DNA of 32,342 bases from Candidatus Peregrinibacteria bacterium CG_4_9_14_0_2_um_filter_53_11 (lineage in GTDB: Bacteria; Patescibacteriota; Gracilibacteria; UBA1369; UM-FILTER-53-11), in contig PFRX01000016.1 in assembly GCA_002788775.1 (NCBI GenBank), forward strand, positions 458 through 32,799. Reading direction: 5' to 3'. Made by a program: the position numbers and the translations under genes. The notes beneath the pieces were generated by a model. It saw nothing but the letters and a program-made list of their open reading frames with translations, had not been told where the DNA came from and did not search any database. Positions 1 to 14,975 of the stretch are shown here, piece after piece (position 1 is the stretch's first letter; each line of letters starts with the position of its first letter).

Positions 1-954
1 ACCTTTTACGGCTGGATATACAAGCAGGGCGGCCTAGATAGCATCAAAGGCCTCGTTGGCAACAGTGCCGAGTACGGCGATCTTGGCGAGCGACTTGCAG
101 CCATGCAGGAGGCGCTGAGTGAACTTGAGGCGAAAACACGCGAACGAACCCTCCCCTACACCCAAAAAGCAGCTGCCCAGAAAGAGTGGATGATGGCACT
201 GAAAAAGCTCAAAGAAGAGTTTGGGCCAGAGGTGAGCGGCCTTCTTAAAAAGGAGGTTATCGGCTCATCACCGGAAGACAAGTACGGCAAGCTCATCTCT
301 AACTTCAAAGTCGTTGAACAGGTCGACGACGTTCTCTATGCTCACTCCGAGATCAGCCCACAGCTCCTGTACCTTGTTGCAGGTGGTGGAATCGACCGCG
401 TCAACAACCTCTGGCGAAAAGCCTTTGAACGCGCAGCGTATCCTAAAGAAGTGATACGACATGACGGCAAAGTCGTAACGCAGGGACCTCAGACCAAGTA
501 CCTCGATCAACTCATCCTTCGTCCCTTTAATGATGCCTTCTGGAGCCGCCTCCTCTCAGAAAAAAAGATCCCCAGTGCGGCGGGCAGAAAAGAAGCCTCG
601 GAAGATCACCTGGAAAAAGTTGCGGTCCTCCTAAAAAAAGCGGGCATCAATACCTTGGTTATTGGCCACACGCCAAGCACACTACTGAGCAAAAAATCAC
701 AGACAGAGGAGGGCAAAAAACACTTCTCACAAGCTGAAGATGGCAAGCAGCACACCGTTGAGATTGGCGGTGTGACCATTATCTTTAACGATCTTGCACT
801 CAGCCCGGGAGTCTCAAAAGAGGAGGAGGCCCGCGCGGGCGGTGTTCTTATTAACGCCGAAACGAGCAGCCGAAACAGTGTCGAGTTCATTAATAACGAA
901 GGGCGCTACGAACAAGAACTCGGAAGCCCCACAGGCCGGAGAGAGGCCGCATAA
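1..954 (+). CDS. Calcineurin-like metallophosphoesterase, 5' end outside window
   Basis: The frame is open from base 1 (first codon Thr) to TAA at 952-954, so the internal ATG at 103 is probably not the start. About 317 residues are visible. The segment around YAHSEISPQLL resembles the metal-binding GDLxxVHGGISP block of the PPP/calcineurin-like phosphatases, and LVIGHTPS near the C-terminal third matches their GHT block. The first metal-binding motifs (DxH and GDxxDRG) would lie upstream of the window. It probably hydrolyses a phosphoester; the substrate is unknown. No membrane segment is seen in the visible part, so it is probably cytoplasmic. The next gene starts 3 nt after its stop, which suggests one operon. 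The family call rests on two motifs, so it is moderately sure. Confidence 0.6.
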   Translation, partial: TFYGWIYKQGGLDSIKGLVGNSAEYGDLGERLAAMQEALSELEAKTRERTLPYTQKAAAQKEWMMALKKLKEEFGPEVSGLLKKEVIGSSPEDKYGKLISNFKVVEQVDDVLYAHSEISPQLLYLVAGGGIDRVNNLWRKAFERAAYPKEVIRHDGKVVTQGPQTKYLDQLILRPFNDAFWSRLLSEKKIPSAAGRKEASEDHLEKVAVLLKKAGINTLVIGHTPSTLLSKKSQTEEGKKHFSQAEDGKQHTVEIGGVTIIFNDLALSPGVSKEEEARAGGVLINAETSSRNSVEFINNEGRYEQELGSPTGRREAA

Positions 955-1791: not shown

Positions 1792-1820
1792 TTGCCTTTT
1801 TGCTCAAAAAAACACACAAT
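1792..1820 (+). promoter_or_regulatory. Promoter of the deoxyhypusine-synthase-like gene, leaderless type
   Basis: TTGCCT at 1792-1797, a 17-nt spacer and CACAAT at 1815-1820 are followed by only 6 nt before ATG 1827. Transcription would begin at or next to the start codon. The -10 box matches the sigma-70 consensus at four of six positions. The same geometry recurs at other genes here, which raises confidence. Confidence 0.5.
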
Positions 1821-1826
1821 ACGGCC

Positions 1827-2936
1827 ATGGAAAAGACCAAGTTCAGCTCACTATCACCGGCACTTCAGAAATACATCGTCACCCACCCGGGAGCAGGCCT
1901 CAGCTCAAACGAGGGAACGCTCAGCTCACACGTTAAAAACAGCACCAATCCCGTCTCTAATTTTGCCCAGAGAACGCTTAATCACTGCAACGGAGGCTCA
2001 ACTCTTCAGGCCGCCCTCTGGCTGAAAGATCACCTTGCCCGGGGAGGTAAGTTGGTCGTCACAATCGCGGGAGCGCTCAGCTCATTTGAGGTAGGCGTCA
2101 TGCTCGCCGATCTTATCAGACAAGACAAGGTCCACCTGATCTCCGCGACCGGTGCAAACCACGAAGAGTCCTACTACCGCTATGTCGCCCACTCGCACTA
2201 CGCATACATACCCCGCTACACCGAGCTTACGCCCGAGCAGGAGGCGGAGCTTCGCGACGCCGGACTCCGACGAATCACCGATACCTTTCTACCCGAGGAT
2301 GAGAGCGTACGCATCATGGAGCCACACCTACTAAAAATGTGGCAGGACGCCGAAGCCAAAGGTGAGCGCTACTTCCCCCATGACTACTTCCGCCGTCTCT
2401 TTTCTGAGGGACTGATCGAGCCCGATCCTCAGGCAAATCCCGCCGACTGCTGGGCCTACGCCGCCTATGAGAAGAACATCCCCATCGTCATTCCCGGCTT
2501 TGAGGACTCGACCATGGGAAACATCTTTGCCAGCTACACCTACACAGGCGCCCACCGTGAGAATAAAGACGTCGTACTCAACCCCACAACCATGAAGACG
2601 GGCCTTGAGTACTTCACCTACCTCTACGACTGGTATATGGAGGCCTCAAAAGACTCCCCCATTGCCTTCCTTCAACTGGGAGGAGGAATTGCCGCCGACT
2701 TCCCGATCTGTGTCGTCCCCTCACTCAAACACGATCTCCAGCTCAAGGGAATCCGCGACTGGGCAGGCTTCATCGAGATCGGCTCATCCCCCATGTCCTA
2801 CGGCTCATACTCAGGTGCAGGTGGAAAAGAGAAGATCACCTGGGACAAGCTCTCCACAGAAAGTTACTACCAGATCATCCAGAGTGATGTGACCGTCGCC
2901 TTCCCTTGGATTGCCGCAGTGCTGCTCGATTTGTAA
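1827..2936 (+). CDS. Deoxyhypusine synthase-like protein (DS family), catalytic lysine absent
   Basis: The protein has 369 residues and is recognisably of the deoxyhypusine synthase family: an NAD-binding-like N-terminal half (VVTIAGALSSFEVGVMLADL near residues 77-96, then SATGANHEES) and a C-terminal block LQLGGGIAADFPICVVPS at 282-299, followed by SYGSYSGAGGKEKITW. In eukaryotic DHS the catalytic lysine lies in GGGVxKHH; here that stretch reads GGGIAADF, with no lysine at the site. Bacterial family members of this type are known. Bacteria lack eIF5A, so the substrate is not the eukaryotic one; polyamine chemistry such as aminobutyl transfer from spermidine is a family-based guess. ATG 1827 is preferred over TTG 1800 because a promoter occupies the intervening bases. 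It is followed by a terminator. Confidence 0.85.
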   Translation: MEKTKFSSLSPALQKYIVTHPGAGLSSNEGTLSSHVKNSTNPVSNFAQRTLNHCNGGSTLQAALWLKDHLARGGKLVVTIAGALSSFEVGVMLADLIRQDKVHLISATGANHEESYYRYVAHSHYAYIPRYTELTPEQEAELRDAGLRRITDTFLPEDESVRIMEPHLLKMWQDAEAKGERYFPHDYFRRLFSEGLIEPDPQANPADCWAYAAYEKNIPIVIPGFEDSTMGNIFASYTYTGAHRENKDVVLNPTTMKTGLEYFTYLYDWYMEASKDSPIAFLQLGGGIAADFPICVVPSLKHDLQLKGIRDWAGFIEIGSSPMSYGSYSGAGGKEKITWDKLSTESYYQIIQSDVTVAFPWIAAVLLDL

Positions 2937-3053: not shown

Positions 3054-4772
3054 TTATCCGAAGGTGAAGGCGAAGAGCTCGACATTACCATCAAGAGCCT
3101 CAAGCTGAAGCTCGTGAGGATCCAGGCCGGGCAGATTCAGAAGTGTGTAGAGCCGATCATCTTGAACGGTTACCACTCCATCTTTAACATCATCAGCCGC
3201 AAGGGCCGAATCGAGAGCCTTTCCATCAAGCGTGACTCTGAGCCGACCGGGCTTCCCGTCGCTTGTTCGCATAACGAGGAAGACCTTCCGCGCGGCTACA
3301 TTAAAACGAAGCTTCGCACCAACTGAAGGGTTGGCCCTCTCGGATGAGAGGTTCCACTCGCCAGCATAGCCGAACTGATTCAACTTTAGCATTGCGGGAG
3401 TTGAGAAGGCCATCGCCGCATCCGGGGTAACCTGCTCGGGCGAAGAGAACTGAGTCGGTGAGAGACGACCGTAACCGAGATAGGTTTCCGGCGTGAGTGT
3501 CTCAACTTTATAGTCAGGATTGTTGATCGTCTCAGCCGAGAGGTCGGCCCCGGTCTCTTTAAGCAGCTCCTGAATAAGCTCCTCGGACTCGTTGTACTCA
3601 CCCTCACCAAAGTGAGTTGAGCGAACACGTCCCTCCTTATCAATAAAGTATTTTGCAGGCCAGAAGCGGTTGTTGTAAGCGCGCCACGTCTTGTAATCGT
3701 TATCTTGAACGATCGGGTAGGTTAGGCCAAAATCGGCCACAGCTTTCTGGACGTTGCCCAGATCCTTCTCAAAATCAAACTCAGGTGTGTGAACGCCGAT
3801 AATTACGAGTCCTTTGTCGGCATACTTCTCATGCCATGACTGAAGGTAGGGCAGTGTTCGTATGCAGTTGATGCAGGTGTAGGTCCAGAAGTCGACAAGA
3901 ACGACTTTGCCTTTCAAAGACTCGAGCGTAAGAGGAGCAGAGTTGATCCACTCACCACCGGGGATGAGCTCGGGAGCCTGAGGGAACTGCCCCTCTGGAA
4001 GGGCCTCGGCATCTCCAGACTCAGCCCCACTCAACTTATCGAGCTGCTTGTAAATAATATCCTGATCTTCAAACTTCGTTAGACCGGCGCCATACTGTGG
4101 GAAGGTTTCGATAACATAGGCCTGGAACTTACGGTCGATATTAAAGTAGATGGCAACGGCAGTAAGAATCATCAAGACACCAAAGATCTTCTGGATTTTG
4201 CCGGTATTGCGAAGCAGCCAAGGCACACGGTTAAGCAGCTGACGGCCTCCGTAAATAATGAAGAACATCGGGATGGCCGTACCCATTGCGTAGGCGAGAG
4301 TAATGAAGAAGGCCGCCGAGTTGACCGTGCTCGTTGCGGCAAGAGTAATGACCGAGGCGAGAATCGGGCCGACACAAGGAGTCCAGAGGAGACCAAGACT
4401 CAGACCAAGAAATACACCACTGATAAATCCCTCACCCTTCTTTTTGGCGGAGACTAAGCCGGACATCTTACCAAAAAGGATCTCCATCCAGACCTGCACT
4501 CGGGGAACGAGAAGCGCAATACCAAAGAGAAAGATTACAACGATAGAGACAGTCCGAAGTGCATTACTCGAAAGACCCGTCAGACTGACAATCGTTGAGA
4601 GTGCCAGAGTGAAAAATGTAAAACTCAAGATAAATCCGACGACGATACCAAAGGGACGCCTTTTTCCTCCTCCCACACTACCTGAAAGGACGATGGGAAG
4701 GATGGGCAAGATACAGGGAGACAAGATAGTTACAATACCAGCGAGGAAGGCGAACCCAATGAGTAGCAACAT
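3054..4772 (-). CDS. DipZ-type CcdA/DsbD membrane protein fused to thioredoxin and C-terminal domain
   Basis: This 572-residue protein has three parts. Residues 1-215 form a CcdA-like electron-transfer domain of about six membrane helices, with its two redox cysteines in LSPC (C20) and WTPC (C133). Residues about 265-400 form an extracytoplasmic thioredoxin domain with active site CINC (C300, C303) in VDFWTYTCINC. Residues about 420-572 form a beta-rich domain typical of DipZ-like proteins. It should carry reducing power from cytoplasmic thioredoxin across the membrane to exported thiol proteins. It lies 48 nt behind a thioredoxin lipoprotein, a likely partner. ATG 4772 has no clear Shine-Dalgarno site; a C-rich ACTTTCCC lies just before it. 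Confidence 0.93.
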   Translation of the reverse strand: MLLLIGFAFLAGIVTILSPCILPILPIVLSGSVGGGKRRPFGIVVGFILSFTFFTLALSTIVSLTGLSSNALRTVSIVVIFLFGIALLVPRVQVWMEILFGKMSGLVSAKKKGEGFISGVFLGLSLGLLWTPCVGPILASVITLAATSTVNSAAFFITLAYAMGTAIPMFFIIYGGRQLLNRVPWLLRNTGKIQKIFGVLMILTAVAIYFNIDRKFQAYVIETFPQYGAGLTKFEDQDIIYKQLDKLSGAESGDAEALPEGQFPQAPELIPGGEWINSAPLTLESLKGKVVLVDFWTYTCINCIRTLPYLQSWHEKYADKGLVIIGVHTPEFDFEKDLGNVQKAVADFGLTYPIVQDNDYKTWRAYNNRFWPAKYFIDKEGRVRSTHFGEGEYNESEELIQELLKETGADLSAETINNPDYKVETLTPETYLGYGRLSPTQFSSPEQVTPDAAMAFSTPAMLKLNQFGYAGEWNLSSERANPSVGAKLRFNVAARKVFLVMRTSDGKPGRLRVTLDGKALDSALAADDVKDGVVTVQDDRLYTLLNLPGLDPHELQLEALDGNVELFAFTFG

Positions 4773-4820: not shown

Positions 4821-5417
4821 CTAGGTGCGAGACTGAATCTCTTTGAGTCCACCCCCATTCCACTTCTTCACCTCATTACCATTGACGTCAACAAGAACAA
4901 AGGTGTGCTGGTAGGTTACACCATACTTTTTTATAAGAGCCTGCTCCGTGTCGTAGTCGGTCTTAAAAACGACGACATCGGCGGGAATATCCTCAAGGTG
5001 CGCGTTAATATCAGCATTGGCTGTCTGGCAGAGTGGGCACCAGGCGGCGTGAAAAAAGAGGAGGCGTTTTTTGTCTTTGGCGGCCTCGAAGGCTGCAGGA
5101 GAGTAGACGACGTAACTTCCGGGAGTCTTGGGGGCTGGCGCGGCAGTGCTCGGAGCGGCAGGTGGAGTAACACCGGGAGCTGCGGGAGCAGGTTGAGTGG
5201 GAACGGCGGGAACTGAAACAGCAGCCTCACCTGAAACCGAAGCGGAAGACTCCGCGGGCTGAGTAGCGACTGATTCGTCAGTCATAGCATCAGCAGCAGA
5301 AGACTCCTCCATCATCTCGTCATCAGTACCAGTCTCCGGAGTTAAAAAGCTGCAGGCCGAAAGGAGCAGGAGCAATAGAAATGCGGGGAGCACCAGTAAT
5401 GTTTTCTTCATCTTCAT
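4821..5417 (-). CDS. Thioredoxin-fold lipoprotein
   Basis: The protein has 198 residues. A short charged N-terminus and hydrophobic stretch end in the lipobox LLSAC (C22), so it is probably a membrane-anchored lipoprotein. An acidic then Ala/Pro-rich linker follows (about 25-100). A thioredoxin domain begins near residue 105, with redox motif WCPLC at 126-130 after LLFFHAA. It probably exchanges electrons with the DipZ-like protein encoded next. The start is ATG 5417 rather than TTG 5447, because the TTG overlaps the -10 box of the promoter. ATG 5411 is also possible. There is no Shine-Dalgarno site; the leader contains TTTACTCCC. Confidence 0.85.
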   Translation of the reverse strand: MKMKKTLLVLPAFLLLLLLSACSFLTPETGTDDEMMEESSAADAMTDESVATQPAESSASVSGEAAVSVPAVPTQPAPAAPGVTPPAAPSTAAPAPKTPGSYVVYSPAAFEAAKDKKRLLFFHAAWCPLCQTANADINAHLEDIPADVVVFKTDYDTEQALIKKYGVTYQHTFVLVDVNGNEVKKWNGGGLKEIQSRT

Positions 5418-5446
5418 AGCAGTAAAAAGGGAGTAAATGTAGAGCA

Positions 5447-5475
5447 ATTATAAAGAATACGGAGGAGGCAGGCAA
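5447..5475 (-). promoter_or_regulatory. Promoter of the thioredoxin lipoprotein/DipZ operon
   Basis: On the minus strand TTGCCT (5475-5470), a 17-nt spacer and a perfect TATAAT (5452-5447) lie immediately after the stop codon of the upstream FG-GAP gene. The -10 box ends 29 nt before ATG 5417, giving a leader of about 22 nt. Confidence 0.7.
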
Positions 5476-5476
5476 C

Positions 5477-7090
5477 CTACTCCTCACGAAGCATCAGGAC
5501 GGTATTGAGCTGGGGCTCGGCTATCACGGTCTGCTTCCCGCTGGGCCAGAAGACCTCGAGCTTGCTGGCCGTTTCATCTGAACCGAGACCAAAGACTGCC
5601 TGCGCGCTCTGATCGCTGAGAAGTCCCGTTCCCGCTGTAATCCAACGACTCATCGTACTGCCATCATTTTTGTGAAGCACGAGTTTAGCTCCGAGTGAGC
5701 GTACATCATCGGGGAGTCGTACAAAGAGCGTGTTATTAGCCCGTCCGTCACTGAGGTAGATTCGCGTTGGACCATCGATATTTATATAGACGAGGTCGAG
5801 CATGCCGTCGGCATTGAAGTCCGTCACGAGTGGAGTCATCCCATAGTAGGGATTTTCGATACCGAGAGCCTCACCGGCAGGCAGGTAGCGCCCATCTGTA
5901 CCTTGAACCAGAAGTCTCCCCTTGAGCTTCACAAAACGGTGTGCGGGCCACTTTTTGTAATTCTGTGCGACGATCAGATCTTCACGGCCGTCAAGATTTA
6001 GGTCGGCAAACTGAGCCCCCCAGGCAAACTCGAAGTTGGCGATGCCCGCCTCATCATTGGCTCGAGTAAAAGCAAAGTTCCCATCATTGCGCAAAAGAGC
6101 CCACTTAAGATCAATCTCTTGCTCAGAGTTCAGATCACCACGGACAACCGACTCGGGGACCGTGTTGCCGGTATTCGTGAAGAAGAGGTCGGGATCACCA
6201 TCGTTATCGTAATCCCCCACCGCAAGCCCCATCCAAAAACCAAAACCGGTCTGAGGTGGAAGGGCCTTAAACTTCATTCCTCCAAGATTTCGGTAGATCT
6301 TCACCGTATCGGTATTCGGTGCCGATACGAAGTCCTGAAGCCCATCGCCATCGAGATCGACAAAAGTTGAGAGAAAAGTGTTCTGCTTAAAATCGATCCC
6401 CGACTCCTCGGTAATATCGACAAACTCCCCACCTCCCTTATTAAGGAGAAAGCGGTTGATACCAACATGAGTCGGGTCGTTAAAGGTTGCTAAACGAAAG
6501 GCGTCGGGGTGGATAAAAGTACTGATGAAGAGGTCGGGAAGACCGTCGCCGTTACTATCAGTTGCAGTGAGACCAAAAGGCATCGTCGTCGTCTCTACCG
6601 AAACTCCCAGCGGCTTTTTAATAAAAGTTGTACCTGTATTTTCGTAGTAGAAAACATCAGCGGGACGTGCCACAAGAAGATCGACATCACCGTCATTATC
6701 GAAATCGAGAGAAAGTGAGCCGAGCCCCGGACCGTCAGTCTCACCAAGTCCCCAGGCCTCGGCTCTGTTCTCAAAATGGTCTCCTTGAAAAAAGAGCAGT
6801 GCGTCTCCCTTCTGTCCACCGACAAAAACCTCATCAACCCCATCACCATCAACATCAATAAGAGCGGAGCCGGTAAAGTAGAGCTCACTGTCGTAGAGTT
6901 CGTGAGTATAAGGCGAGGGCAGTTCGGTGTAGGAGGGCTGGCCACCCACGGCGCCCATCAACTCCTTAACCTGCTCGGGAGCGAGGTCTGAGCTAACAAC
7001 GGACTGATAAAAAACCGGCTTGAGAAGATAAACAGCGATGATGATGACGATAGCCAGAAGGCTCAGGAAGAGATAGGTGCGTGATTTCAT
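5477..7090 (-). CDS. FG-GAP/VCBS-repeat protein with C-terminal ASPIC/UnbV domain
   Basis: This is a membrane-anchored exported protein of 537 residues. An N-terminal hydrophobic helix (about 5-23) is followed by roughly six FG-GAP/VCBS blades with calcium-binding loops such as DVDGDGVDEV, DFDNDGDVDLL, DSNGDGLPDLF, DYDNDGDPDLF and DLNLDGREDLI. The C-terminus, about residues 460-530, matches the ASPIC/UnbV domain (AVFGLGSDE then VFWPSGKQTV). This is the CRTAC1 family architecture. The function is likely surface recognition or adhesion, with the propeller stabilised by calcium; the ligand is unknown. The start is ATG 7090, with a TAGTAT box 7 nt upstream; ATG 7099 is an alternative. It lies upstream of the thioredoxin lipoprotein, which has its own promoter. 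Confidence 0.9.
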   Translation of the reverse strand: MKSRTYLFLSLLAIVIIIAVYLLKPVFYQSVVSSDLAPEQVKELMGAVGGQPSYTELPSPYTHELYDSELYFTGSALIDVDGDGVDEVFVGGQKGDALLFFQGDHFENRAEAWGLGETDGPGLGSLSLDFDNDGDVDLLVARPADVFYYENTGTTFIKKPLGVSVETTTMPFGLTATDSNGDGLPDLFISTFIHPDAFRLATFNDPTHVGINRFLLNKGGGEFVDITEESGIDFKQNTFLSTFVDLDGDGLQDFVSAPNTDTVKIYRNLGGMKFKALPPQTGFGFWMGLAVGDYDNDGDPDLFFTNTGNTVPESVVRGDLNSEQEIDLKWALLRNDGNFAFTRANDEAGIANFEFAWGAQFADLNLDGREDLIVAQNYKKWPAHRFVKLKGRLLVQGTDGRYLPAGEALGIENPYYGMTPLVTDFNADGMLDLVYINIDGPTRIYLSDGRANNTLFVRLPDDVRSLGAKLVLHKNDGSTMSRWITAGTGLLSDQSAQAVFGLGSDETASKLEVFWPSGKQTVIAEPQLNTVLMLREE

Positions 7091-7178
7091 AAGGCCCATA
7101 CTAGCAAATGGTGGAGGGAAAAACGAGACAGATCAATGAACCTGGAGCAGGGCGGTGAGAGTAGAGGCCGAGCCGAAT

Positions 7179-10679: not shown

Positions 10680-11072
10680 ATGCACACCTCATCTCTTCTC
10701 TGGGCACAGATGCTCAGCGTCCCCTTCCTTCTTGTAGGAATCGGTTTCCTACTCAACTCCGAATACTACCGAAAGATGTACAAAGACTTCATAAAAATGC
10801 CCAGCACGATTTTTACGTGGGGAGTTCTAACGACAGTCCTCGGACTCGCTATGGTAGTTAACCACAACGTTTGGAATGGAGCCTGGTGGACGACACTGAT
10901 CACTGTTCTCGGTATCCTAACACTGGTGAAGGGGCTCTTCCTCTTGGTCTTCCCCAATGTCATGGAAGAGATGGCCAAGCCTTGGCTCAAGTCATCCGGT
11001 CTGATGTATTTCAGCGGCGCCTTCACAGCGGTTCTGGGGCTGATCCTCGGCTACTACGGCTTCATCGCCTAA
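10680..11072 (+). CDS. Small four-helix membrane protein, unknown function
   Basis: The protein has 130 residues with four hydrophobic helices, at about 6-25, 45-62, 70-90 and 105-128, and little else. I do not recognise a family. It starts at ATG 10680 without a Shine-Dalgarno site, with a TTTAACTCCCCC motif 3 nt upstream. The next gene, the DUF1624-dehydrogenase fusion, starts 13 nt after its stop, so the two are probably co-transcribed and may act together at the membrane. Confidence 0.65.
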   Translation: MHTSSLLWAQMLSVPFLLVGIGFLLNSEYYRKMYKDFIKMPSTIFTWGVLTTVLGLAMVVNHNVWNGAWWTTLITVLGILTLVKGLFLLVFPNVMEEMAKPWLKSSGLMYFSGAFTAVLGLILGYYGFIA

Positions 11073-11085
11073 TACAAGAAGTTAT

Positions 11086-12867
11086 ATGAAAAAGAGCAGC
11101 AAGAACCGCCTCGTCCTTATAGACATACTGCGCGGTAGTGCACTCGTGGGCATGGTAGTATTCCATGCCCTTTTCATTTTGGACTTTTATGGAATCCAGA
11201 ACTTCGATTTATTTAGCGGGGGGTGGGATGTTTTCGGTACGATCATACGACTGACCTTTCTTGGTCTGGCCGGAGTGAGTGTCGGACTTTCCTACGAGCG
11301 ACACAACTCACGCGCACGCATTGTTAAACATGGTGAGGTAGTGCTCCTTGCCGGGCTGGCAATCACGCTGGCAACGAGGCTCTCCGTACCCGGTTGGTTT
11401 GTCCGGTTTGGGATTCTACATCTCATCGGAGTCTCTATCCTGATTTTGAGTGTAGTGGGACGACGACCGCGGACAGCCTTTATTATGGGGATTGCAGTTC
11501 TAATCATGACTCCGGTGGTAGCGAGCATACGGGGCAGTGGAATAGTGGGCTACAGCCTTGGAATGGCTCAGAGTGAAGCAATCTCGAGTCTGGACTACTT
11601 TCCCCTCTTCCCCTGGTTCGGCTTCATCGCTTTAGGGATGTGGCTCGGGCACTATCTGATGAGGTACCTTAGCACGACGCCGACCACGGCCCCCCTCCCA
11701 GTCCGCCCTCTCATCTTCATGGGCAGGCACGCACTTATGATCTATATGACTCACGTACCGCTCATCATCGCAGCCTTCATCGTACTCGGCATACTCCCCC
11801 TTGGATCAGTTATTTTCACTCCGGAAAATCAACCGAACGGTCCCACTGAGGAGGTCCCCCGAGAGCTGACGATATCCGCTTCAAACCTCTCAATCCCTTG
11901 GGAAGTAGCGCCCCTTTCGAATGGAGAGCTCCTCGTCACAGAACGAACGGGCTCACTCGTGAAGATTGATCCCACCTCTCAAAAACGAATTACTATTGAG
12001 GGAGTCCATCATAGTGGCGAAGGTGGACTACTGGGCCTCGCGCTCCACCCAAACTTCGAAAACAACCATCGGATCTACCTCTACCTCACAACTCTTACAT
12101 CCGAAGGGACACGTAACCGCGTGGAGAGCTACCTCTTTGATGGAAAAAACCTGAGCGAGCAGCTGACGATTATCGAAGGCATCCCGGGCTCACGCTTCCA
12201 TGATGGAGGAAGAATCGCCTTCGGTCCCGACGGGCTGCTCTATATAACGACGGGGGATGCACAAAATTCGGCAAACGCTCAGGAGATCAACTCTCTTGCG
12301 GGAAAAATCCTACGACTTACCGACACGGGCGAAGTTCCCACGGATAACCCGTTCAACAATGCCGTCTACTCCTATGGCCACCGCAATCCGCAAGGACTCG
12401 CTTGGGACTCAACGGGCCGGCTCTGGGCTACGGAACACGGACGCTCCGGAGTTAGCTCAGGCTTTGATGAACTCAACAAGATAGAAAAAGGGGGCAACTA
12501 TGGCTGGCCCACAATCGAGGGTGGCGCTGAGGCTCAGGGGCTCATCACACCGGCGGCGCACTCGGGAGCTACAACCACATGGGCACCGGCCGATGCACTC
12601 TACTATAAGGGGAGTATATTTTTCACCGGCCTCCGAGGAGAGTCCCTGTACGAGGCAGTTATTAACGAGGCGGAAGGAAGTGTGACTGAGATTAAAACTC
12701 ACCTCGTGGGCCAGTTCGGACGTCTCCGAGGACTTGCCCTCAACCAAGATGAAACATCTCTTTTCATCACCACATCCAATACGGACGGCCGAGGCGTTGC
12801 AGCCGACCAAGATGATCGCCTGATCAAGCTCCCTCTAGCAGCTATTGAAGGAGCAATCGGCAAGTAG
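11086..12867 (+). CDS. Fusion: DUF1624/heparan-glucosaminide acetyltransferase-like membrane domain plus PQQ-type sugar dehydrogenase
   Basis: One open frame of 593 residues. Residues 9-240 form a multi-helix membrane domain of the DUF1624/HGSNAT type, with the N-terminal signature LIDILRGSALVGMVVFHALF and a C-terminal GRHALMIYMTHVPL. Residues about 258-590 match the glucose/sorbosone (aldose sugar) dehydrogenase propeller: PWEVAPLSNGELLVTERTG, GLLGLALHPNF, FHDGGRIAFGPDGLLY (His372 is a likely catalytic base), YGHRNPQGLAW and GGNYGWP. The dehydrogenase should lie outside the membrane and oxidise sugars with PQQ; the membrane half may move acetyl groups to a glycan. These domains are normally separate proteins. 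A weak AGAAG precedes ATG 11086. Confidence 0.9.
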   Translation: MKKSSKNRLVLIDILRGSALVGMVVFHALFILDFYGIQNFDLFSGGWDVFGTIIRLTFLGLAGVSVGLSYERHNSRARIVKHGEVVLLAGLAITLATRLSVPGWFVRFGILHLIGVSILILSVVGRRPRTAFIMGIAVLIMTPVVASIRGSGIVGYSLGMAQSEAISSLDYFPLFPWFGFIALGMWLGHYLMRYLSTTPTTAPLPVRPLIFMGRHALMIYMTHVPLIIAAFIVLGILPLGSVIFTPENQPNGPTEEVPRELTISASNLSIPWEVAPLSNGELLVTERTGSLVKIDPTSQKRITIEGVHHSGEGGLLGLALHPNFENNHRIYLYLTTLTSEGTRNRVESYLFDGKNLSEQLTIIEGIPGSRFHDGGRIAFGPDGLLYITTGDAQNSANAQEINSLAGKILRLTDTGEVPTDNPFNNAVYSYGHRNPQGLAWDSTGRLWATEHGRSGVSSGFDELNKIEKGGNYGWPTIEGGAEAQGLITPAAHSGATTTWAPADALYYKGSIFFTGLRGESLYEAVINEAEGSVTEIKTHLVGQFGRLRGLALNQDETSLFITTSNTDGRGVAADQDDRLIKLPLAAIEGAIGK

Positions 12868-14236: not shown

Positions 14237-14569
14237 CTACCAGTGAGCAATAACCCTTCCCACAACATCTGCATCCGGAACTCCACCAAAGACGAGGCTG
14301 TCATCGCCCTCTTTTAGATTATCCGCTCGCACCTGCCAGCGATTGCTCTCGTAAGTTACCGCTCGCTTAACCATAATCAGCCCTTCTTTTCTAAAGACGA
14401 GAATATCCCCCCTCCGCTTTGGAGCCCAGGAAAAAACGAGCAGCCTACTCCCCTCCTTCAGCGTTGGCTCCATACTCTTACCTCCAACGACAAAAAAACG
14501 GAGCGGAGCGAGGCGCTTAACAAAGGAACTAAGCCTGTTTCGTAGCCTTAAATATATCGGCGACTTCAT
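14237..14569 (-). CDS. sodX: Nickel-type superoxide dismutase maturation protease (S24/S26 family)
   Basis: The protein has 110 residues and is a small serine-lysine peptidase of the signal-peptidase type. GKSMEPTLKEG holds the catalytic serine (Ser32), IMVKRAV the general-base lysine (Lys68), and GDDSLVFGGVP corresponds to the GDxxxxSxDSRxFG block. No clear membrane helix is seen, which suits the NiSOD maturation protease rather than a true signal peptidase. It should remove the N-terminal extension of SodN to expose His1. ATG 14569 lies inside the end of sodN, so the genes overlap by 41 nt; TTG 14575 is an alternative. Adjacent sodN makes the specific name secure. Confidence 0.9.
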   Translation of the reverse strand: MKSPIYLRLRNRLSSFVKRLAPLRFFVVGGKSMEPTLKEGSRLLVFSWAPKRRGDILVFRKEGLIMVKRAVTYESNRWQVRADNLKEGDDSLVFGGVPDADVVGRVIAHW

Positions 14570-14975
14570 GGACAAGATCGTGAAGTTTTTTTACCTCGGC
14601 GAGGTCGACCGTCCTCTTCACAACGGAACACTGCTTGGTGGTCTTCCAGACAAGATCGTGAAGGTTGGGCCACTTTTCAAGGTGCTCAGGTTTGAAGTAG
14701 TCGGTCCACAAGATAAGAACCTGCTCTTTGCAAATCTGAGCGTACTCTTCCTTAACCATAACCGCACGCGTGACTGTGTTGTGATACTCAAGTCGGTGCG
14801 CCTGGTCATCATGGGCGGGTTCCTCAAGAGCGGCCAGCTTGTCGACCAGCTTCATACAAGTCTCGACGGCCCAGCTCATAGAATCAACTTCATAAACACC
14901 GCACGGAACATCACAGTGAGCATGTGCGGGAGTGGGTTTGATTGAGTTGTTCAGAAAAGAAAGAAGTGTATTCAT
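14529..14975 (-). CDS. sodN: Nickel superoxide dismutase
   Basis: This is a 148-residue precursor. Residues 20-28, HCDVPCGVY, match the NiSOD hook: His1, Cys2 and Cys6 of the mature enzyme bind nickel and Tyr9 gates the site. A 19-residue leader ending in PTPAHA must be removed just before the histidine, the job of the adjacent SodX. The rest is helical, with SWAVETC, HRLEYHNTVTRAVMVKEEYA and DLVWKTTKQCS as in the four-helix bundle. It disproportionates superoxide in the cytoplasm. The overlap with sodX suggests translational coupling. ATG 14975 lies 6 nt after a TATACT box, so the mRNA should be leaderless. Confidence 0.95.
   Translation of the reverse strand: MNTLLSFLNNSIKPTPAHAHCDVPCGVYEVDSMSWAVETCMKLVDKLAALEEPAHDDQAHRLEYHNTVTRAVMVKEEYAQICKEQVLILWTDYFKPEHLEKWPNLHDLVWKTTKQCSVVKRTVDLAEVKKLHDLVHEVADIFKATKQA

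Follow-up and report, generated by a model that had tools for sequence, protein, structure and literature searches.

The window (the whole 32,342-nucleotide stretch of DNA analysed here) contains one gene that joins an HGSNAT_cat/DUF1624 membrane domain to a PQQ aldose sugar dehydrogenase propeller. The fusion is real and, so far, a one-off: the domain combination itself is new, and both component families are already known. We see about an even chance that this is a lineage-private fusion yielding an active bifunctional protein, in which the membrane half provides the anchor for export and may have kept acyl transfer; this reading assumes no coupling between the two activities. Here, we describe the two halves, their distribution, and their genomic context, and then weigh the alternative explanations.

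Architecture of the fusion protein

The gene runs from ATG to TAG as a single frame of 593 codons without interruption (Table 1). In Pfam searches, residues 8-225 match the whole HGSNAT_cat profile (PF07786, 1-222/222, E 8e-51; 173 bits vs a curated cut-off of 22), and residues 268-569 match nearly the whole GSDH profile (PF07995, 1-329/332, E 4e-73, far above the curated cut-off), with a spacer of ~16-20 residues between HGSNAT_cat and propeller. The first-pass annotation had described one frame joining a DUF1624/HGSNAT-like membrane half to an extracytoplasmic PQQ-type propeller. That description holds, as both Pfam domains are complete and the expected folds were modelled. A full-length model built from a mixed alignment rendered the membrane half poorly.

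Table 1. Coordinates of the fusion gene, its domains and key residues, and the upstream gene (positions in the window)
Feature	Position	Strand	Basis
Fusion gene, 593 aa	11086..12867	+	One open frame
HGSNAT_cat/DUF1624 domain, residues 8-225, seven helices, predicted N-in/C-out	11107..11760	+	PF07786; AlphaFold; positive-inside count
DxxRx10H motif, helix 1: D13, R16, H27	11122..11166	+	29 sequences: D13 and H27 invariant, R16 ≥90%; motif as in PMC12423673
FxxxxG motif, helix 2: F58-G63	11257..11274	+	Invariant in 29 sequences; aligned with human HGSNAT F313-G318
His82 in the TMH3 Arg column	11329..11331	+	Arg in 24/28 relatives; human R345 (AWR345S alignment)
Y220 + H223, last helix, TMH9-Tyr equivalent	11743..11754	+	At least 90% conserved; structural range match to HGSNAT
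Flexible linker, residues 241-256	11806..11853	+	pLDDT <50 at 241-251, full-length model
PQQ aldose sugar dehydrogenase beta-propeller, residues 257-586	11854..12843	+	PF07995; structure matches
His372, equivalent of sGDH catalytic His144	12199..12201	+	34/36 relatives; sGDH alignment
Arg433-Asn434, equivalents of sGDH Arg228-Asn229	12382..12387	+	36/36 and 34/36; GHRNPQGLA aligned
Arg546 + Arg548 (GRLR), putative PQQ-carboxylate ligands	12721..12729	+	36/36 each; aligned with GRLR of 3a9g and 3das
130-aa membrane protein	10680..11072	+	Weak DUF2065 similarity only

The membrane half is a compact relative of HGSNAT

The AlphaFold model of the membrane half has a mean pLDDT of 92.2 and seven membrane helices. 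Inner segments contain 4, 3, 3, and 3 Lys/Arg residues vs 0, 2, 1, and 1 in the outer segments; these positive-inside counts put the N-terminus on the inner side and the C-terminus, and with it the propeller, outside the cell. Thus, the positive-inside rule and the model together predict that the propeller is extracytoplasmic.

Foldseek alone gave a best E of 0.08 for the membrane half and nothing under E 0.001, and a sequence profile reaches HGSNAT at E 0.004. In the structural comparison, the top matches were nine human HGSNAT entries (Z 10.5-13.5, up to 222 residues), the best superposing residues 6..235 on HGSNAT 265..627 (Z 13.5 over 213 residues, rmsd 3.9). After HGSNAT, the second structural aligner, which compared Foldseek's top 1000 chains only, returned GWT1 at Z 9.6 and all others at Z ≤5.3. 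Instead of the ten-helix superfamily core, the fusion and the whole compact subfamily have seven helices; we therefore place the membrane half near the TmAT superfamily, as a compact relative, without counting it as a full member. Standalone membrane relatives terminate where the linker of the fusion starts.

The acyl-CoA-site signature of TmAT proteins comprises DxxR and, farther down TMH1, an Asn (in HGSNAT) or a His (in AT3), plus FxxxxG, an Arg in TMH3, and a Tyr in TMH9; the TMH3 Arg is present in most members and is important in HGSNAT and AT3 proteins (PMC12423673). We compared the fusion with 28 relatives (29 sequences in all), and it keeps 13 of the 13 invariant columns, including polar D13, H27, H112, and D170, residues that a mere anchor would not need. 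His27 lies eleven residues past R16, which is the AT3 spacing. The TMH3 Arg column is occupied by His82 (human R345, a number obtained by counting along the aligned human chain), and His is also found there in two standalone relatives, L017 and L109. The TMH9 Ser position is Ala216. Across the 29 sequences, no His is conserved in the stretch linking helix 1 to helix 2; the human luminal catalytic His (H269/H297) may be specific to HGSNAT. Altogether, the acyltransferase-like character that the first-pass annotation gave the membrane half is supported by the HGSNAT fold match and by the retention of D13, R16, H27, F58, G63, and Y220, with the TMH3 Arg lost.

Two groups of known acyltransferases resemble the fusion. 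The fusion shares with HGSNAT and other HGSNAT_cat proteins of the TmAT superfamily the profile, the fold, DxxR with a His/Asn eleven positions after its Arg, FxxxxG, and the Tyr of the last helix. However, HGSNAT has ten core helices, while the fusion has seven, without the TMH3 Arg and with no conserved counterpart in its subfamily to the luminal catalytic His, and its C-terminus is predicted to face outward with the fused enzyme. AT3-SGNH acyltransferases (OafB, OatA) likewise pair an acyl-CoA-pore membrane domain with an enzyme domain that comes after it and lies outside, and they have DxxRx10H with His; their outside partner is an SGNH hydrolase, whereas that of the fusion is an unrelated dehydrogenase propeller, and AT3 is a different Pfam family.

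The propeller retains catalytic and PQQ-ligand positions

The second half is a six-bladed propeller like those of PQQ aldose sugar dehydrogenases from Pyrobaculum (3a9g), Streptomyces (3das), and Thermus (2ism), with 41-46% identity and Z 46-49. The match to 3a9g reaches Z 49.0 (rmsd 1.5, 46% identity), and that to PQQ-bound 3das reaches Z 46.6. The columns of the catalytic His and the PQQ ligands in these enzymes are also found in the fusion. A check of the PQQ-ligand residues had been proposed in the first-pass annotation, and H372, R433, N434, R546, and R548 are all present, as judged by alignment and not by ligand modelling; the sGDH residue roles (His144, Arg228, Asn229) draw on PMC6881789 and general background on sGDH.

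What differs is the attachment. The known enzymes are soluble or borne by one helix or a lipid, and a single N-terminal helix or lipobox is the rule among standalone propeller relatives, whereas the propeller of the fusion hangs from a seven-helix domain. CcPDH of Coprinopsis is another case of a six-bladed PQQ dehydrogenase inside a multidomain protein, but its partner is a haem b cytochrome domain for electron transfer, and it has no acyltransferase-like domain (PMC6881789).

Distribution and origin

No match spanning both halves was found in 89 genomes of the order, 353 of the class, 380 sampled from the phylum, 400 from Chloroflexota, seven further genomes, viral contigs, or the 80 top-ranked hits from a scan across GTDB, which was seeded with exact short peptides only and is therefore not exhaustive. 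The architecture search for DUF1624 plus GSDH that the first-pass annotation had called for thus yielded no second example in roughly 1,100 genomes, and in the literature searched we found no report of the domain pair or of a function for short DUF1624 proteins. Because the genus and family of the host are thinly sampled, the "private" status of the fusion may shrink with more genomes. Long open frames in class genomes hinted at other HGSNAT_cat fusions, but we rejected these: the additional length precedes the domain, and the C-terminal tails are short.

Standalone HGSNAT_cat copies are common in the order, and nine class genomes (including G613, G609, G626, G649, G441, and G701) hold both genes apart. 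In these, the two genes are non-adjacent: they are 16 kb apart in G609 and on different contigs in G613. In class genomes such as G550, G555, G473, G557, and G494, TGA codons, many in frame, interrupt the propeller and HGSNAT_cat matches, as expected for Gracilibacteria-type TGA recoding.

In the propeller tree, the fusion half falls in a mainly candidate-phylum clade beside a Peribacteria lipoprotein, L022 (support 90/85), while the other propellers of the order (L002/L003) stand apart from it and group with an Ignavibacteria sequence. The membrane-half tree is weakly resolved and places the fusion among copies from its own order and class. The fusion is on long branches in both trees: 1.04 vs a median of 0.65 for the membrane half, and 0.68 vs 0.42 for the propeller. 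On these phylogenies, the simplest history would be the fusion of an order-type membrane gene to a candidate-phylum propeller.

Host genome and gene neighborhood

The host belongs to the candidate phyla radiation (CPR) and is of Gracilibacteria/Peribacteria type; its genome has 1,198,749 bases (99% complete, draft in 49 contigs). The fusion is the only whole-protein match and the only HGSNAT_cat domain in this genome. Host metabolism was probed family by family, and one single-family test each found no pqqE, cytochrome c, or haem-copper oxidase in the host genome. Reliance on external PQQ is also seen in E. coli (PMC6881789).

Immediately upstream lies the gene for a 130-aa membrane protein; its end, at 11072, is separated from the fusion ATG by 13 nt, and the two genes are possibly on the same transcript. 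The first-pass annotation had suggested this small protein as a partner; only the 13-nt gap speaks in favor, and its family is unlinked to either half, so we do not retain the suggestion. The family occurs in 45 of the 89 order genomes, frequently with two or three copies each, and its members almost always sit on a different contig from the HGSNAT or propeller genes or at a long distance from them. The sole exception is G004, in which a family member is ~4 kb from a distant propeller homologue. No family members were found in the flanks of the relatives examined.

Elsewhere in the window, 3054-4772 (-) encodes DsbD_TM fused to a redoxin plus a Thioredoxin_10 C-terminal domain, and the adjoining 4821-5447 (-) encodes a thioredoxin-domain lipoprotein, together forming an outside-facing thiol redox pair. 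A nickel superoxide dismutase at 14529-14975 (-) (Sod_Ni E 1e-38) overlaps a small S24/S26-type signal peptidase at 14237-14575 (-). Pairing of NiSOD with a maturation protease is a known arrangement, which the 14237-14975 pair resembles. The window also encodes a deoxyhypusine synthase-like protein, here bacterial, at 1800-2936 (+) (DS, E 1e-28), and an FG-GAP/UnbV_ASPIC secreted repeat protein at 5477-7099 (-).

Possible functions of the fusion

In the reading we favor, a compact seven-helix HGSNAT/DUF1624 domain would have been fused, within one reading frame, to a PQQ aldose dehydrogenase of candidate-phylum type, taking the place of the signal anchor usual in standalone propellers. The propeller would use PQQ drawn from the environment to oxidize aldoses at the cell surface. 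The membrane half would bind cytoplasmic acyl-CoA, could pass an acyl group to an outside acceptor, and would double as the anchor. Oxidation and acyl transfer need not have a common substrate. Against this reading stand His82 at the TMH3 Arg position, Ala216 at the TMH9 Ser position, the lack in this subfamily of a conserved counterpart to the human catalytic His of the first luminal loop, the seven-helix fold, and the negative host-genome tests for pqqE, cytochrome c, and haem-copper oxidase.

The first-pass annotation had offered two uses for the fusion, coupling of the two activities or simple anchoring, and the evidence treats them differently. Anchoring alone, with acyl transfer lost and the membrane half merely exporting and tethering the propeller, stays tenable because His82 replaces the TMH3 Arg and the family is the compact seven-helix version. 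The long branches in both trees and the position of the HGSNAT_cat domain where a simple signal anchor would be also fit this explanation. However, every invariant polar family residue is retained, the His82-type residue also occurs in the standalone L017 and L109, and seven helices are a costly anchor for a 1.2-Mb genome, so we regard anchoring alone as possible but somewhat unlikely. Coupling fared worse. An enzyme that oxidizes and acylates the same surface or extracellular sugar in turn, through an acyl-CoA-fed pore and a PQQ dehydrogenase, would be consistent with the placement of the propeller on the same side as the extracytoplasmic end of the acyl-CoA pore and with the occurrence of both genes, apart, in the nine class genomes. 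Moreover, fusion to an outside partner that participates in the transfer, such as SGNH, is frequent among TmAT proteins (PMC12423673). Yet the two genes are not adjacent where both are present (G609, G613), no glycan genes were recognized nearby in the parts of the window scanned, and aldose oxidation gives a lactone, itself not an evident acceptor; we consider a coupled enzyme improbable. To our knowledge, no such sequential chemistry on one sugar has been described for either family.

We also considered two further explanations. The first-pass annotation had raised an assembly merge near codon 245, and the architecture, without a second copy in any search, does come from one draft genome in 49 contigs, as might be the case if an assembly or sequencing artefact had joined two genes. 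Had such an error occurred, we would expect to see a broken domain, a shift of frame, or a leftover signal anchor, and the sequence around the joint has none of these. Rather, both domains are whole and in frame, base composition is even across the joint (GC ~0.51-0.56 on either side; GC3 0.60 and 0.56), and the linker is too short to have held the one-helix signal anchor typical of standalone propellers, all of which makes an artefact very unlikely. We give equally little credence to two products, in which an internal start would also yield a propeller with a one-helix anchor. In-frame ATGs at 11719 and 11737 do precede the last helix and would generate an N-terminus like that of standalone propellers, but neither has a clear ribosome-binding site upstream, and both belong to the conserved last helix.

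If both halves are active, the fusion would add a redox enzyme to the outside partners found with transmembrane acyltransferases, and it would provide a convenient system in which to test compact seven-helix DUF1624 proteins for acyl transfer. Should activity be confined to the propeller, the fusion would neatly illustrate how an enzyme domain can be given a new role as an export anchor.
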